DNA from: Hyphomicrobiales bacterium
Lineage (GTDB): Bacteria > Pseudomonadota > Alphaproteobacteria > Rhizobiales > UBA4765
Direction: 5' to 3'
Assembly: GCA_021732205.1 (NCBI GenBank)
Contig: JAKFVK010000015.1
Location: forward strand, 1-34,380
Length of the DNA: 34,380 bases
The notes under the pieces are model-generated. The model ran no database searches, was not told the origin of the DNA, and saw only the letters and a list, made by a program, of their open reading frames with translations. Within the stretch, counting starts at the first letter, position 1. Each line of letters opens with the position of its first letter. Below, piece after piece: positions 27,257 through 33,176 of the stretch. Made by a program: the position numbers and the translations under genes.

Positions 27257-28942
27257 CTACATGCCGATGTAATTCGGGCCGCCCGCCCCTTCCGGCGTCA
27301 CCCAATTGATGTTCTGGGCGGGGTCCTTGATGTCGCAGGTTTTGCAATGGACGCAATTCTGCGCGTTGATGACAAAGCGCGGATCGCTTTTCGTCTCGGA
27401 ATTGGCGTAAACCACCTCGTACACGCCCGCCGGGCAATAAAGCCGCGCCGGCTCGCCATAGAGCGGCAGGTTCCGGCCAATCGGGATGCTTGCGTCTTTG
27501 AGCTGCAGATGCACCGGCTGGTCTTCCTCGTGATTGGTGTTGGAGAGATAGACCGAGCTTGGCTTGTCGAAGCTGATCTTGCCGTCCGGGCGCGGATAAT
27601 CGATGGGTGATGACTGCGCCAGCGTTTTCAGCGTAGCGAAATCGGCCTTGCCATGTTTCATCGTACCAAACAGCGAAAAGCCGAAGGTGTTGCACCACAT
27701 GTCAAAGCCGCCGAGAGCGATGCCGATGAAGGTGCCAAGCTTCGACCATAGTGGCTTGGCGTTGCGCACCCGCCACAGATCCTGACCGATCGCAGACGTC
27801 CGCCACGCCTCCTCATAAGCTGCCAGCTCGTCATGAGCGCGCCCCTGTTGCAGCGCCGTGAACGTATGCTCGGCCGCCAGCATGCCTGAGAGAATGGCGT
27901 TATGACTGCCCTTGATGCGCGGCACGTTGACGAAGCCCGCCGCACACCCGAGCAGCGCTCCGCCGGGAAACGTCAGCTTGGGCACCGACTGATACCCACC
28001 CTCGGTAATGGCGCGCGCCCCGTAGGCGATACGCTTGCCGCCCTCGAACACGCTGCGGATGCCAGGGTGCGTTTTGAAGCGCTGGAACTCGTCGAAGGGC
28101 GACAAATAGGGGTTCGTGTAGTTGAGATGAACAACGAAGCCGGCGGCAACAAGCCGCTCGCCATAATGATAGAGGAAGGAGCCGCCGCCGGTTGTGTTGT
28201 CAAGCGGCCAGCCGAAACTGTGCTGCACCAGACCGGGCTGATGCTTGTCGGCGGCCACTTCCCAGATTTCCTTGATGCCGATGCCGAATTTCTGTGGCTC
28301 GCGCCCCTGTGACAGGTCGAAGCGGGCGATTGCCTGCTTGCTGAGATGACCGCGCGCGCCCTCGCCGAGCAGCGTGTATTTGCCGCGCAGCTCCAGGCCA
28401 CGGGTAAAGGTTGATTTGGGGCTGCCATCCTTGGCAACACCCATATCGCCGGTAGCAACCCCGACCACACCGCCCGCCTTGTCATAGAGCAATTCGGCAG
28501 CGGCAAATCCCGGATAAATCTCGACACCCAGAGCCTCCGCCTCACCGGCGAGCCATTTCACCACCTCACCCAGCGAGACGATATAGTTGCCGTGATTGTT
28601 CATCAGTGGCGGCATCATCCAGTTGGGCAGGCGAAACGCCATCGAGGTGCCAAGAAAGAGAAAGCGGTCATCCTTCACTTGCGTGGTGATCGGGGCGCCT
28701 TTCTCCTTCCAGTCAGGGATGAGCTGGTTGATGCCTACCGGATCAATGACGGCGCCCGACAGGATATGGGCGCCGGGCTCCGAGCCCTTCTCGACGACGA
28801 CCACCGAAATCTCGGCACCATTATCCATCGCCAGCTGTTTGAGGCGAATGGCGGCGGCCAGACCCGCCGGTCCGGCGCCAACAATCACCACATCATAGTC
28901 CATCTGGTCGCGCGCTGGCTTATCGGTCAAATTCTGGCTCAT
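27257..28942 (-). CDS. Electron transfer flavoprotein-ubiquinone oxidoreductase
   Basis: It passes electrons from ETF (fatty acid and amino acid oxidation) to ubiquinone at the inner membrane. The product has 561 residues. The ATG at 28942 is chosen because GGGGAG lies eight bases upstream; a GTG three codons earlier is less likely. The FAD fold starts with YDVVIVGAGPAGLAAAIRL. The C-terminal ferredoxin-like part has the 4Fe-4S cysteines (LYCPAGVYE, then NCVHCKTCDIKDP) and ends NYIGM. The sequence is complete. A palindrome sits just upstream in the region shared with the glycosylase gene. Confidence 0.97.
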   Translation of the reverse strand: MSQNLTDKPARDQMDYDVVIVGAGPAGLAAAIRLKQLAMDNGAEISVVVVEKGSEPGAHILSGAVIDPVGINQLIPDWKEKGAPITTQVKDDRFLFLGTSMAFRLPNWMMPPLMNNHGNYIVSLGEVVKWLAGEAEALGVEIYPGFAAAELLYDKAGGVVGVATGDMGVAKDGSPKSTFTRGLELRGKYTLLGEGARGHLSKQAIARFDLSQGREPQKFGIGIKEIWEVAADKHQPGLVQHSFGWPLDNTTGGGSFLYHYGERLVAAGFVVHLNYTNPYLSPFDEFQRFKTHPGIRSVFEGGKRIAYGARAITEGGYQSVPKLTFPGGALLGCAAGFVNVPRIKGSHNAILSGMLAAEHTFTALQQGRAHDELAAYEEAWRTSAIGQDLWRVRNAKPLWSKLGTFIGIALGGFDMWCNTFGFSLFGTMKHGKADFATLKTLAQSSPIDYPRPDGKISFDKPSSVYLSNTNHEEDQPVHLQLKDASIPIGRNLPLYGEPARLYCPAGVYEVVYANSETKSDPRFVINAQNCVHCKTCDIKDPAQNINWVTPEGAGGPNYIGM

Positions 28943-28967
28943 TCTTGCCACTCCCCTCGCGTTTGGT

Positions 28968-29040: not shown

Positions 29041-29874
29041 ATGCAGGTATCTGCGACAGAGGCAATGTCGGTTGCGCAGGCAAGAGCACTGCTTGACTGG
29101 TATATCGCCATGGGCGTTGATTGCGCTATTGGCGAAACTCCGATCGACCGCTTCGCTCTGGGCAATGCCACGCCCACATCCCCGTCCAGGCCAGCCGCGG
29201 TCGCTTCCCTGATAGCGCCGCTATCGCCTCGCGCCAGCGCCGCACGACCCTCCGCGCCGGCCATCGAGGGTGAGCCCGGCATCGCCGAAGCGCGCCGTCT
29301 CGCCGCCGCGGCAATGAGTCTCGACGAGCTGCGCGAGGCGATGAACGCCTTCGAGGGCTGCGCTTTGAAGGCAACCGCGTCCCAACTCGCGTTTGCCGAT
29401 GGCATTGCCGGTGCAGCCCTGATGCTGGTCGGTGAAGCGCCGGGCCGGGAAGAAGATTTGCAGGGCAAACCCTTCGTCGGACGCTCCGGGCAATTGCTCG
29501 ATCGTATTCTGGCATCGATCGGCCTTGATCGCAGCAAGGTCTATATCGCCAACGTTGTGCCTTGGCGCCCGCCAGGCAACCGCACACCCACTCCCCAGGA
29601 ATTGGCAATCTGCCGACCCTTCATCGAACGTCAGATTGAATTGGCGGCACCCAAATGCCTCGTCCTGCTGGGCGGCGCGGCCAATTCCGCCCTGACCGGC
29701 TCCTCTCAAGGCATTGTCAAGCAACGCGGGAAATGGCTGAGCCTGCACATGGGACAGCTTGTCCTGCCCACCATGCCGACCTTCCACCCGGCTTATCTGT
29801 TACGAAACCCCCTCTCCAAGAAATTGATATGGAACGATTTTTTGGAAGTTCATCAAGTGTTGCGCCGGGCCTGA
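29041..29874 (+). CDS. Uracil-DNA glycosylase, family 4-like, lacking two Fe-S cysteines
   Basis: It removes uracil from DNA to start base excision repair. From the ATG at 29041 the product has 277 residues (29065 is an alternative). The first 95 residues are a variable Ala/Pro-rich part. The glycosylase domain has GEAPGREEDLQGKPFVGRSG, NRTPTPQE and the FHPAYLLRNP motif. Family 4 enzymes bind a 4Fe-4S cluster with four cysteines; here only Cys107 and Cys191 remain, with Phe104 and Trp175 (VVPWRPPGNR) at the other two positions. The cluster is therefore probably absent. Related alphaproteobacterial proteins are believed to share this form. It is divergent from ETF-QO. Confidence 0.9.
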   Translation: MQVSATEAMSVAQARALLDWYIAMGVDCAIGETPIDRFALGNATPTSPSRPAAVASLIAPLSPRASAARPSAPAIEGEPGIAEARRLAAAAMSLDELREAMNAFEGCALKATASQLAFADGIAGAALMLVGEAPGREEDLQGKPFVGRSGQLLDRILASIGLDRSKVYIANVVPWRPPGNRTPTPQELAICRPFIERQIELAAPKCLVLLGGAANSALTGSSQGIVKQRGKWLSLHMGQLVLPTMPTFHPAYLLRNPLSKKLIWNDFLEVHQVLRRA

Positions 29875-30659: not shown

Positions 30660-31283
30660 TCATTCATCAATATCGCGCCGTACCGGCCCGCTGGCGACGC
30701 GAAATCCCTTCGCTTGAAGCGCTTTTCTGGTTAACTCTCCGCTGTCGCTGCGCGACCAGCCGATGCCGGCAAAGGCGCCCGCTTTGCCGGGAGGAAAGCG
30801 TGGCGCGGTGCCCTTGACCGCGCAAAACCAGAATCCGCCATCTTCGGCATAGGCGATCACAGCGTCGGCGCCCTTGAGGGCGCTGAACGCCGCCGCGATA
30901 TGCGTGGCGTTGACATCAACAATATCGCTCCCCATGACCGCCGCCGGCGCCGCGCCGGCATGGGCGAGCAGGCTACCCATACGATGGCCGAGATCGCCTG
31001 AGCTTTGTGCCAATACCTCGCAGCCGGGGGCAAGCCGCCGCCATAACGGGCTGTGAACCGCAGTGGGCGGCGTGACGGCCAGGATCGTTCGCCAGCGTTT
31101 GTCCTGCCCTGCCGTCCGCAAGGTGGAGGCCAGCAATGTACGATATAGCGACACCGCGCCAATAGCGCCAATCCGTCGCGCCAGCCTTGTCTTGACGGCG
31201 CCGGCAATCGGCAGCCGTGCCATGATGAACAGCAGGGGCCGCGATCTTCCGGCCTTGCGCTGGCGTGCAGGCGAGCTCGTCAT
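30660..31283 (-). CDS. DUF2064 / TIGR04282-type glycosyltransferase
   Basis: This 207-residue nucleotidyl/glycosyltransferase-fold protein has a nucleotide-binding start LLFIMARLPIAGAVKTRLA and GSDIVDVNATHI at the metal site. TIGR04282 proteins are usually paired with a TIGR04283 protein, as here, and in some genomes these lie near arsenosugar synthesis genes; no arsM or arsS gene is in the window. The real product is unknown. The start overlaps the stop of the upstream partner by four bases. Confidence 0.85.
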   Translation of the reverse strand: MTSSPARQRKAGRSRPLLFIMARLPIAGAVKTRLARRIGAIGAVSLYRTLLASTLRTAGQDKRWRTILAVTPPTAVHSPLWRRLAPGCEVLAQSSGDLGHRMGSLLAHAGAAPAAVMGSDIVDVNATHIAAAFSALKGADAVIAYAEDGGFWFCAVKGTAPRFPPGKAGAFAGIGWSRSDSGELTRKALQAKGFRVASGPVRRDIDE

Positions 31284-31975
31284 TTTTGTCCTTGATAGCG
31301 ACGCATCAGCGCTTCCGGAGAGGCGCCAAGCAGGTAGAGCGCAAGACAGGAGAGATTGCGCAGGCTGCGCCCGACATAGCCGTCGGTCTCATAACGCCTG
31401 GCACTGGTGATGGCCCTGGTGCGCAGGATCTGCAGGTTCCGGTGACCGATACGCCGGACCATATCGACGTCTTCCATCAACGGTATGTGCCGGAAGCCTC
31501 CCAGCCGGCGGTAATGATCAAGGCGCATGAGCAGCCCCTGATCGCCATAGGGAAGTGCGAACAGGAAGCAGCGCAGCGCCACCATTCCTTCAAGCAGGCG
31601 GGCTTTCACGCCGAAACTGTCAAGGGCAAAGGTGAAGCACGCAGCCCTGTCATCGTCCTGCTTGTCGGCGCGTTCGATAAAGGCCGACACCTCTTGCTCC
31701 CAGCCAGGACCGGGAAGGGTATCGGCATGCAGGAAAAGAAGCCAGGGCCCGCGCGCCTGCGCGGCGCCGGCGGCAAGCTGCGTGCCACGTCCTTTGTTAC
31801 TATGAACGATGCCACAACCCATGGCATCGGCGATAGCGAGTGTGTCATCCTGCGACCCGCCATCGCTGACGATGACCTCGCGCACCAGGCCGTCGGCCGC
31901 AGCCGGCACCAGTGTGCATAGCGTTGCCGGGAGGTCTTGGGCGGCATTGAAGGTGGGGATGATAACGCTGATCAT
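31280..31975 (-). CDS. Family 2 glycosyltransferase, TIGR04283 type
   Basis: This 231-residue GT-A enzyme starts at 31975 with MISVIIPTFNAAQDLPATL, the usual N-terminus; a longer frame to 32107 would overlap the divergent radical SAM gene. It has VREVIVSDGGSQDDTLAIA and LLFLHADTLPGPGWE (the DxD-like metal site is HAD) and LPYGDQGLLMRLD. It forms a two-gene unit with the DUF2064 gene. The pair is named for arsenosugar synthesis, but a role in envelope glycolipid or hopanoid modification is equally possible. Confidence 0.87.
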   Translation of the reverse strand: MISVIIPTFNAAQDLPATLCTLVPAAADGLVREVIVSDGGSQDDTLAIADAMGCGIVHSNKGRGTQLAAGAAQARGPWLLFLHADTLPGPGWEQEVSAFIERADKQDDDRAACFTFALDSFGVKARLLEGMVALRCFLFALPYGDQGLLMRLDHYRRLGGFRHIPLMEDVDMVRRIGHRNLQILRTRAITSARRYETDGYVGRSLRNLSCLALYLLGASPEALMRRYQGQK

Positions 31976-32066
31976 GGCTCCACAGTGCCGAGAACCGGGC
32001 GCCGTGGGCAAGCAGGAAATGCGCAGGCCGCTTGCAAACAACAAAGAACAAAGATAGAACATCGCA

Positions 32067-33176
32067 ATGACCCAGCTTGCAATCCGCCACACTTTGCCAG
32101 GCGACAATCACATCGCTGAACCGCGACGCCGCGGGCGTGGCGTGGTGTCGAATGCCGTCGGTCGCTTTGAGGCTTTGAAGCGTCACGAGGAAGATGACGG
32201 GTGGGGCAGTGTCGACACGCTGCCGGCATTCCGCACCGAGGTGGCGGTTGAAATGGCGCGGGCGATCATTGCCCGCAATGAATCGCCTGATATTTCCTTT
32301 GACCGTTCGATCAATCCCTATCGCGGCTGCGAGCATGGCTGCGTCTATTGTTTTGCGCGGCCAACCCACGCTTTTCTCGGATTGTCGCCCGGGCTCGATT
32401 TCGAGACCCGTCTGGTGGCAAAAGACAATGCCGCCGACCTTCTCGAACGCGAACTGGCAAATCCGCGATATGAACCGCGCACCATCGCGCTGGGCACCGC
32501 GACCGACCCCTATCAGCCCATTGAGCGCGAGCGCAAACTGACCCGCAGCGTTCTCGAAGTGCTCGAGCGCGCCGGCCATCCGGTCGGTATCGTCACCAAA
32601 TCGGCGCTGGTGACCCGCGATATCGATATTCTGGCGCGCATGGCCGAGCGTAACCTCGCCAAGGTGGCGATATCGGTGACGACGCTTGATCATCGTCGCG
32701 CCCGTTCGCTGGAGCCGCGGGCCTCGACCCCCAAACGCCGGCTGGAGGCGATCAGCCGGCTGAGCGCGGCCGGCATCCCGACCACGGTGCTGATTGCCCC
32801 GGTGATCCCCGCGCTCAATGATTACGAGATCGAGGCGATCCTCGAGAAAGCCTATGAGGCTGGCGCGCGCGAGGCCGGTTGGGTGATGCTGCGCCTGCCG
32901 CGCGAGGTGCGCGACCTGTTCACCGAATGGCTGATGACGCACGAACCGGACCGCTACCGTCATGTCATGAGCATCATCCGCGCCATGCGCGGCGGCAAGG
33001 ATTATGACGCAACCTTCGGCAAGCGCATGACCGGCGAGGGCCCCTATGCGTGGATGATCGCCCGGCGCTTCCAGGCAGCGCTCCGGCGCCTTGGCTATCG
33101 CAGCACGAGGACAAGGCTTGACACCAGTCATTTCCGCCGGCCTGTGCTCGCAGGCGGGCAACTCTCACTGTTTTAG
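32067..33176 (+). CDS. PA0069-family radical SAM protein
   Basis: This 369-residue protein resembles spore photoproduct lyase-like enzymes. The radical SAM cluster cysteines are Cys88, Cys92 and Cys95 in YRGCEHGCVYCFARPTH (CxxxCxxC). The next parts are IALGTATDPYQPIER, GHPVGIVTKSALVTRDIDIL and LIAPVIPALND. A role in DNA repair is guessed for the family but unproven. The protein ends QLSLF, a short motif like the QLxLF clamp-binding peptide, which would fit a replication or repair link; that is my inference. No strong ribosome site is visible before the ATG. Confidence 0.92.
   Translation: MTQLAIRHTLPGDNHIAEPRRRGRGVVSNAVGRFEALKRHEEDDGWGSVDTLPAFRTEVAVEMARAIIARNESPDISFDRSINPYRGCEHGCVYCFARPTHAFLGLSPGLDFETRLVAKDNAADLLERELANPRYEPRTIALGTATDPYQPIERERKLTRSVLEVLERAGHPVGIVTKSALVTRDIDILARMAERNLAKVAISVTTLDHRRARSLEPRASTPKRRLEAISRLSAAGIPTTVLIAPVIPALNDYEIEAILEKAYEAGAREAGWVMLRLPREVRDLFTEWLMTHEPDRYRHVMSIIRAMRGGKDYDATFGKRMTGEGPYAWMIARRFQAALRRLGYRSTRTRLDTSHFRRPVLAGGQLSLF

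Follow-up and report, generated by a model that had tools for sequence, protein, structure and literature searches.

Locus and predicted protein

The gene at positions 29041–29874 (+) of the window, by which we mean the whole 34,380-nt stretch of DNA that was analysed, encodes a protein of 277 aa with matches to PF03167 (124.2 bits, cut-off 24.3) and to TIGR00758 (UDG_fam4; 189.5 bits, cut-off 125.3), in agreement with the initial annotation, which had called it a family 4-like uracil-DNA glycosylase (UDG). The open reading frame starts with an ATG at 29041, and no stop codon separates this from an in-frame upstream TTG at 28945. Among the named records, Candidatus Raskinella chloraquaticus (Hyphomicrobiales by taxonomy) comes closest, at 94% identity. 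The divergently oriented neighbour (27257–28951, −) encodes an FAD-dependent oxidoreductase whose best NCBIfam matches are FixC-type and below cut-off, and which we take to be ETF-QO-like. Such a neighbour is also found in 62 of the 80 named loci and in 81 of the 140 loci from genome searches, counts in which some loci end early and the 140 take in other UDG types. Further along the window lie genes for a TIGR04282 glycosyltransferase annotated for arsenosugar biosynthesis (30660–31283, −; 131.2 bits, just below the cut-off of 134), a TIGR04283 glycosyltransferase with an arsenosugar biosynthesis annotation (31280–32107, −) and, adjoining these two, a radical SAM protein (32067–33176, +).

The N-terminal part of the UDG contains a motif conserved throughout the class (residues 15–38, RALLDWYIAMGVDCAIGETPIDRF; 29083–29154, +), which is a putative psi-type clamp-loader-binding motif, and an unconserved, Pro/Ala-rich flexible linker (residues 43–75; 29167–29265, +) with pLDDT below 50 at residues 43–62 and 64–70. 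Reading of the sequence and alignment place motif A (GEAPG, residues 131–135) at 29431–29445 (+) and motif B (HPAYLLR, residues 249–255, including the catalytic H249) at 29785–29805 (+), and N171 (29551–29553, +) aligns with the uracil-binding N80 of the Thermus enzyme TthUDGa (role as given in the available text of PMC5387724). The pocket residues E132, E138, F145, N171, N180 and H249 correspond to E41, E47, F54, N80, N89 and H155 of TthUDGa and are all intact; the motifs GEAPGREED and HPAYLLR, described as intact at the outset, are both present, with the aligned catalytic residues unchanged.

The comparison with the Thermus family 4 enzyme that the initial annotation had proposed was made with an AlphaFold model (44 sequences; mean pLDDT 84.4). 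The model has the family 4 fold, unchanged with respect to the Fe–S enzyme 1ui1 (Z 28.1, rmsd 1.3 Å over 181 residues); as the predictor omits clusters, agreement of the sequence with the fold is all that this shows. By the motif definitions of family 4 (available parts of PMC10359453 and PMC5387724), the protein has a motif A of the form GE(A/G)PG, a motif B starting with HPA and the equivalents of the catalytic residues, as well as a TIGR00758 match, and it carries two of the four cysteines that hold the 4Fe–4S cluster. Judged from its sequence, its descent and catalytic residues make it a family 4 enzyme, which its Fe–S cysteines do not.

Loss of the Fe–S cysteines in Alphaproteobacteria

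Reading of the DNA and phmmer alignment with the Thermus and Thermotoga enzymes, both of which have all four cysteines (CCCC), put F104 (29350–29352, +), C107 (29359–29361, +), W175 (29563–29565, +; in VVPWRPPGNR) and C191 (29611–29613, +) at the four Fe–S cysteine positions. As first noted, cysteines 1 and 3 are thus replaced, by Phe and Trp, and cysteines 2 and 4 are kept. Among 190 alphaproteobacterial loci (80 named and 110 from class genomes, with one gene counted twice, L106 being L189), W175 was found in 189, F or Y at position 104 in 182, and each of the two cysteines, C107 and C191, in 183; 166 loci have FCWC complete. These are no population frequencies, because the 110 class loci are best-scoring matches. 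The class-wide occurrence of the pattern rules out chance, sequencing error or a frameshift as its source. Of the family 4 UDGs fetched from non-alphaproteobacterial members of the same phylum, 13 of 14 are CCCC, and the remaining one, L257, is CCSC.

That the pattern marks a clade rather than a mutation, as the initial annotation supposed, is borne out both by the near-universal W175 and by the homolog tree it had called for, in which these sequences group together. Close homologs with all four cysteines, which would have told against this, did not occur among the alpha-clade sequences read: the maximum is three, in L311 alone. This alphaproteobacterial protein is CCWC and forms the first branch of the alpha clade in a FastTree tree of 248 sequences, where the node joining all of the clade except L311 has a support of 0.64. 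On an IQ-TREE tree built with the trait columns left out, the fewest changes were one at position 104, two at 175 (of which L257 presumably accounts for one), 23 at 107 and 19 at 191. Cysteine 3 was probably lost first, giving way to Trp, followed by a single replacement of cysteine 1 by Phe, while C107 and C191, apparently no longer ligands, seem to have undergone some 20 changes each, in many cases alongside intact catalytic residues. Several sister proteins, such as L160, L166, L276 and L306, have none of the four cysteines yet keep their catalytic residues. Given the loss of two ligands and the repeated changes at the other two with catalysis intact, the alphaproteobacterial clade almost certainly lacks the 4Fe–4S cluster, and the cluster-free enzyme envisaged at the outset is very probably what the window encodes. 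In archaeal family 4 enzymes, Cys-to-Ser changes cost just about 40% of activity, according to the available part of PMC5295032. One of the sister proteins, the alpha-type UDG L276 (G699:C18, family f29), combines intact catalytic residues with TSWF at the cysteine sites and lies in an open frame of 933 aa, which may stem from a fusion or from a long upstream stretch that happens to stay open.

Catalytic decay, gene retention and uracil repair

Degeneracy was scored by residues that are costly when mutated in TthUDGa (available text of PMC5387724). E132, N171 or H249 is changed in 43 of the 213 genomes with an alpha-clade sequence read and intact in 170, a ratio that is no frequency since low scorers were sought on purpose. 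In the degenerate proteins the losses fall mainly at the active site (E132, A133, G135, N171, N180, R255), with W175 kept in 38 of 42, K260 in 39 of 43 and W264 in all 43; the last two belong to a C-terminal K260-W264-D266 motif (29818–29838, +, in the window) that resembles the psi motif AKRALWQQI. Seven pairs of degenerate copies from the Rhizobiaceae-like family f175 gave dN/dS values of 0.07–0.19, indicating purifying selection; five of the 15 degenerate pairs were saturated, and the low dN/dS in the pairs that gave a value rules out that the degenerate copies are pseudogenes. Something besides excision seems to maintain the gene. The fewest catalytic losses by parsimony number seven, a lower bound that may have been pulled down by long branches; counted by family label, degenerate copies turn up in 20 families. 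An alphaproteobacterial genome of family f168 has two alpha-type copies (L324 and G346:C26:34057–34620), each near another UDG-superfamily match; L324, the one read, is catalytically degenerate, chi is undetected there, and with a contamination of 6% the genome perhaps represents two strains.

No family 1 Ung was found in the window's genome (56% complete), and 27 of the 385 class genomes have an Ung match over cut-off, the corresponding figure for TIGR00758 being 348 of 385 with UdgX-like matches counted. With Ung so rare, the family 4 enzyme, where intact, probably serves as a main uracil glycosylase. For Caulobacter, the available part of PMC1839093 reports no E. coli-like Ung and four COG1573 proteins. 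The window's genome has two more UDG-superfamily genes, at G000:C32:10119–10619 (L002, with a GLAPG motif of the family 5-like kind) and G000:C152:3113–3607 (L003). Ung is present in 21 of 41 genomes with a degenerate alpha-type UDG vs five of 148 with an intact one (Fisher p 2.4e-12), and a tree-based test of the same relation gave two supported pairs and p 1. Degenerate copies also occur in Ung-negative genomes, three in family f25 and one in f107, both of which have Ung-positive relatives. In view of the tree-based test and of these cases, replacement by Ung is suggestive at most as an explanation of the decay. At least two UDG-superfamily matches were found in each of the 20 degenerate genomes without Ung, which is uninformative, as the superfamily is also present in 13 of 14 controls.

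Psi-type N-termini and gene position outside Alphaproteobacteria

The N-terminus of E. coli psi (HolD) ties the chi–psi complex to domain III of three tau subunits (available parts of PMC3290774; 3GLI via PMC13213242). When 14 non-alphaproteobacterial UDGs (L254–L267), chosen for their family 4 score and not for likeness to psi, were aligned with ten psi proteins, hhalign gave an E-value of 6.5e-6 and a score of 39.9, the best of 150 column shuffles reaching 21.3; with the N-termini alone the values were 2.5e-6 and 32.6 vs 11.7 for the best of 150 shuffles. By hmmscan, PF03603 matched two of the 14 whole proteins, at best with E 0.00047 and below the gathering score. With seven of the 14 N-termini, picked by eye, PF03603 was found in three, and the psi peptides 9oyg_J and 3gli_O were the top two of eight PDB matches (E 0.13 and 0.18).

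Intermediates between the two proteins were also found. Two genomes of family f219 with no strong family 4 match, G504 and G535, carry an ORF of 172–177 aa beside rimI that matches PF03603 with 26.4 and 25.3 bits (gathering score, 22.2). The first of these ORFs, that of G504, is in addition matched by the alphaproteobacterial UDG profile A2 (E 7e-6); the one of G535 matched A2 solely when the fetched loci were searched without filters and gave no match in the profile search that picked up the G504 ORF. PF03167 is over cut-off in the intermediates L350, L351, L356 and L357, and a psi-like N-terminus was read by eye in L350–L354, L356 and L357. Alignment of psi with UDGs and intermediates together gave E 5.5e-10 and a score of 64.5 vs a maximum of 22.7 over 100 shuffles; this test included three canonical UDGs, all of them already matched by PF03603. 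When the two PF03603 ORFs were left out, the alignment was reduced to the N-terminal motif (40.7, shuffles up to 18.5), so that homology of the folded domains rests mainly on the intermediates. Taken as a result of profile comparison, the sharing of the psi clamp-loader-binding N-terminus by non-alphaproteobacterial family 4 UDGs is well supported.

The gene rimI adjoins psi at 14 of 14 loci, canonical non-alphaproteobacterial UDGs at 10 of 21 and degenerate UDG/psi-like genes at 10 of 10, its identity having been established by TIGR01575 in three loci and the flanks spanning 1.5–3 kb; within flanks of the same size it was seen beside none of 230 alpha-side UDG loci, some of which are of the UdgX and family 5 types. 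Nine of the 11 canonical non-alphaproteobacterial UDGs without rimI belong to a single family, f191. A canonical four-cysteine UDG at 915–1706 of L384 (G416:C5:2500–5500), a locus that was fetched as a PF03603 match, stands in the order UDG–rimI–prfC. The E. coli order we take to be holD–rimI–yjjG–prfC, which would put the UDG of L384 in the place of holD. Among 77 hand-picked non-alphaproteobacterial genomes, psi is over cut-off in one of the 40 with a strong family 4 match (E ≤5e-50) vs 18 of the 37 without (p 1.7e-6), and the single psi match among the 40 lies in the UDG's own frame, at its N-terminus. For 15 of the 37, absence of family 4 was inferred from an earlier match list; eight of the 15 were searched again and gave no strong match. 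Outside Alphaproteobacteria, UDG and HolD occupy the same place, are almost mutually exclusive and are joined by intermediates.

The alphaproteobacterial motif and its association with chi

The consensus of the alphaproteobacterial motif at residues 15–38 is LLx[FW][YQ]xxAG[VA]DEA[LI]xDxPVDRF, and the disordered linker comes next. Of 300 alpha-side loci, 242 contain it by a strict text pattern, among them 30 of the 45 in which at least one of the six residues is changed; truncated N-termini and diverged motifs are among the misses. An HMM built from 73 'alpha' motifs (two of them, L255 and L267, non-alphaproteobacterial) detected it in 129 of 147 genomes. Aligned as a block, 71 alpha motifs fell in register both with the 14 non-alphaproteobacterial N-termini (LLDWYIAMGV on QMALKAMGF; score 12.9) and with psi (DWYIAMGVD on RLLQQLGIT; 13.9), three of 200 shuffles doing as well in each case; against the 14 whole non-alphaproteobacterial proteins, the best match of the block lay elsewhere and 77 of 200 shuffles did as well. 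Whole alpha N-termini that had not been selected for the motif gave E 0.13 with 80 sequences, a test in which one or two shuffles scored about 130 and whose repeat with a trimmed alignment had no such outlier, and gave no match with 150 sequences (19 of 150 and 86 of 150 shuffles did as well). A better score for the 73 alpha motifs, 19.4 vs 14.0, is biased, the non-alphaproteobacterial peptides having been hand-picked and hand-aligned and two of the 73 motifs not being alphaproteobacterial.

Psi matched full-length alpha UDGs with a probability of 16% and gave no significant match to the alpha UDG domain alone. The N-terminus of the window protein (67 or 43 residues) has no Pfam match, and PF03603 is absent both there and from the whole protein; no psi chain was among the top 50 matches listed by Foldseek and VIA, which counts neither for nor against. 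The equation of the alpha motif with the psi motif is suggestive only, and as this match is weak, the case for the alphaproteobacterial protein leans on orthology of the UDGs, on the shared layout of motif, linker and domain, and on chi. The initial annotation mentioned neither this conserved motif nor the recurrent decay of the active site in genes that are kept, nor a possible link to psi of DNA polymerase III.

Chi (HolC, PF04364) was found in 337 of 385 class genomes. In the window's genome it lies at G000:C30:8273–8671 (E 7.9e-35), and a search of the same genome (G000, 56% complete) for psi with PF03603 found none. Of 147 genomes, 122 have both motif and chi, 11 neither, seven the motif only and seven chi only (p 6e-8). 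The association is also seen among genomes no larger than 1.7 Mb (p 2e-4) and at the level of families (p 0.0015); since all 103 genomes larger than 1.7 Mb have the motif, it rests on small genomes. In 25 catalytically degenerate genomes, the corresponding numbers are 17 with both, seven with neither, one with the motif only and none with chi only. Three genomes of family f27 (G024, G156 and G254) have kept the catalytic residues and have neither motif nor chi, and a fourth, G333, has chi without the motif. Excision and the chi-linked role look like two separable functions. As the losses are in reduced genomes and a tree-based test had just three supported pairs, shared decay is a possible confounder of the association. 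Family f15, which we guess to be sphingomonad-like, keeps chi, yet no alpha-type UDG was found in the four genomes of the class draw (G012, G145, G244 and G325); G577, also of f15, has one.

Interpretation and relation to known systems

The reading that we think likeliest, though at no better than even odds, is that the window protein is bifunctional, a cluster-free UDG that also takes the part of the psi not otherwise recognised in Alphaproteobacteria. Its C-terminal domain would be a UDG of the family 4 type in which a hydrophobic plug formed by F104 and W175 took the place of the 4Fe–4S cluster in the alphaproteobacterial ancestor, leaving C107 and C191 as ordinary core residues, and which would remove uracil by the usual family 4 chemistry. 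The N-terminal motif would be the alphaproteobacterial form of the psi peptide and bind the DnaX clamp-loader collar; the disordered linker would join it to the UDG-fold domain, which in turn would contact chi, and hence SSB, as in psi. The HolD protein of E. coli would then be a UDG that has shrunk and lacks the active site. Against this reading stand the weak likeness of the alpha motif to psi, the absence of rimI from the flanks of all 230 alpha-side loci, and the f15 genomes that have chi yet gave no alpha-type UDG. We infer the absence of the cluster from the protein, the binding of DnaX and chi and the activity at the fork, and the psi role of the window protein is suggested by orthology, layout and co-occurrence with chi. 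We lean slightly against a broader proposition while taking it seriously, namely that HolD is a worn-down UDG; that in much of Proteobacteria, including nearly all Alphaproteobacteria, the position of psi is filled by a UDG, mostly one with its catalytic residues, so that the replisome would have uracil excision as one of its own activities; that bacteria with HolD kept the scaffold only; and that the same decay is recurring in Rhizobiaceae-like and several other alphaproteobacterial lineages.

The protein might instead be a cluster-free UDG and nothing else, with a hydrophobic core in place of the cluster and a motif that is otherwise used, or that just recruits uracil repair to the replisome without any chi-binding psi function. 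We find this possible though rather doubtful. The intact E132, N171 and H249 in the window and in 170 of 213 genomes, the weak match of the alpha motif to psi, the rarity of Ung in the class and its apparent absence from the window's genome, 56% complete as it is, all agree with a plain glycosylase; however, such an enzyme leaves unaccounted for the upkeep of degenerate copies, mostly with the motif and at dN/dS of 0.07–0.19, and the joint gain and loss of motif and chi. The initial annotation had proposed a UDG with a different substrate or strand preference (hypoxanthine, xanthine or single-stranded DNA), which we consider improbable: although W175 adjoins motif 3 (RPPGNR, with N180), and BdiUng of B. 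diazoefficiens (PDB 5gn2) is an example of an odd UDG in Alphaproteobacteria, all six pocket residues are those of canonical family 4 and the predicted fold is unchanged. A disulfide between C107 and C191, or another metal, serving as a redox switch in place of the cluster, appears very improbable. Each of the two cysteines is kept in 183 of 190 loci, and five of the nine loci that lack either lack both, as would be expected of a pair; but the minimum of 23 and 19 changes, often to the bulky F, M or L with the catalytic residues intact, is typical of core residues.

A review of 2012 records chi in alpha-, beta- and gammaproteobacteria and psi as recognised in gammaproteobacteria only, leaving the reason open in the text available (PMC3290774; similarly the available part of PMC3197488). 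Among the literature matches listed, as far as their available text goes and with subscription papers outside the scope, we found no paper linking psi/HolD with a uracil-DNA glycosylase. If a family 4 UDG is psi, uracil repair and the replisome would physically be one machine in much of a phylum, and the clade would offer a natural example of an enzyme stripped first of a cofactor and later, across many lineages, of its catalytic activity, with the gene maintained by a different role.

The window protein has the same fold (Z 27–28), motifs A and B and catalytic residues as the family 4 UDGs of Thermus (TthUDGa, 1ui0/1ui1), Thermotoga (TM0511) and Sulfolobus tokodaii (4zbx), from which it differs by the replacement of two Fe–S cysteines and by the motif and linker that make up some 90 residues at its N-terminus. 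With psi (HolD, PF03603; E. coli, Pseudomonas), non-alphaproteobacterial UDGs have the N-terminal peptide and the rimI neighbour in common, and the C-terminal K..W motif is common to psi and UDG; the N-terminus of psi is flexible as well (available part of PMC3197488). In contrast to psi, the window protein has a glycosylase site of the active type, an oxidoreductase as neighbour instead of rimI and no PF03603 match. A precedent for a catalysis-independent role of a UDG in replication is the processivity factor D4 of vaccinia virus (available text of PMC1936997), although D4 is viral, has A20 as its partner and involves no clamp loader. UdgX (TIGR03914) belongs to the same superfamily; the window protein scores 137.9 bits against this model, under the cut-off of 189.95, and in place of GEQPG and the KRRIH loop it has GEAPG and RPPGNRTPT.
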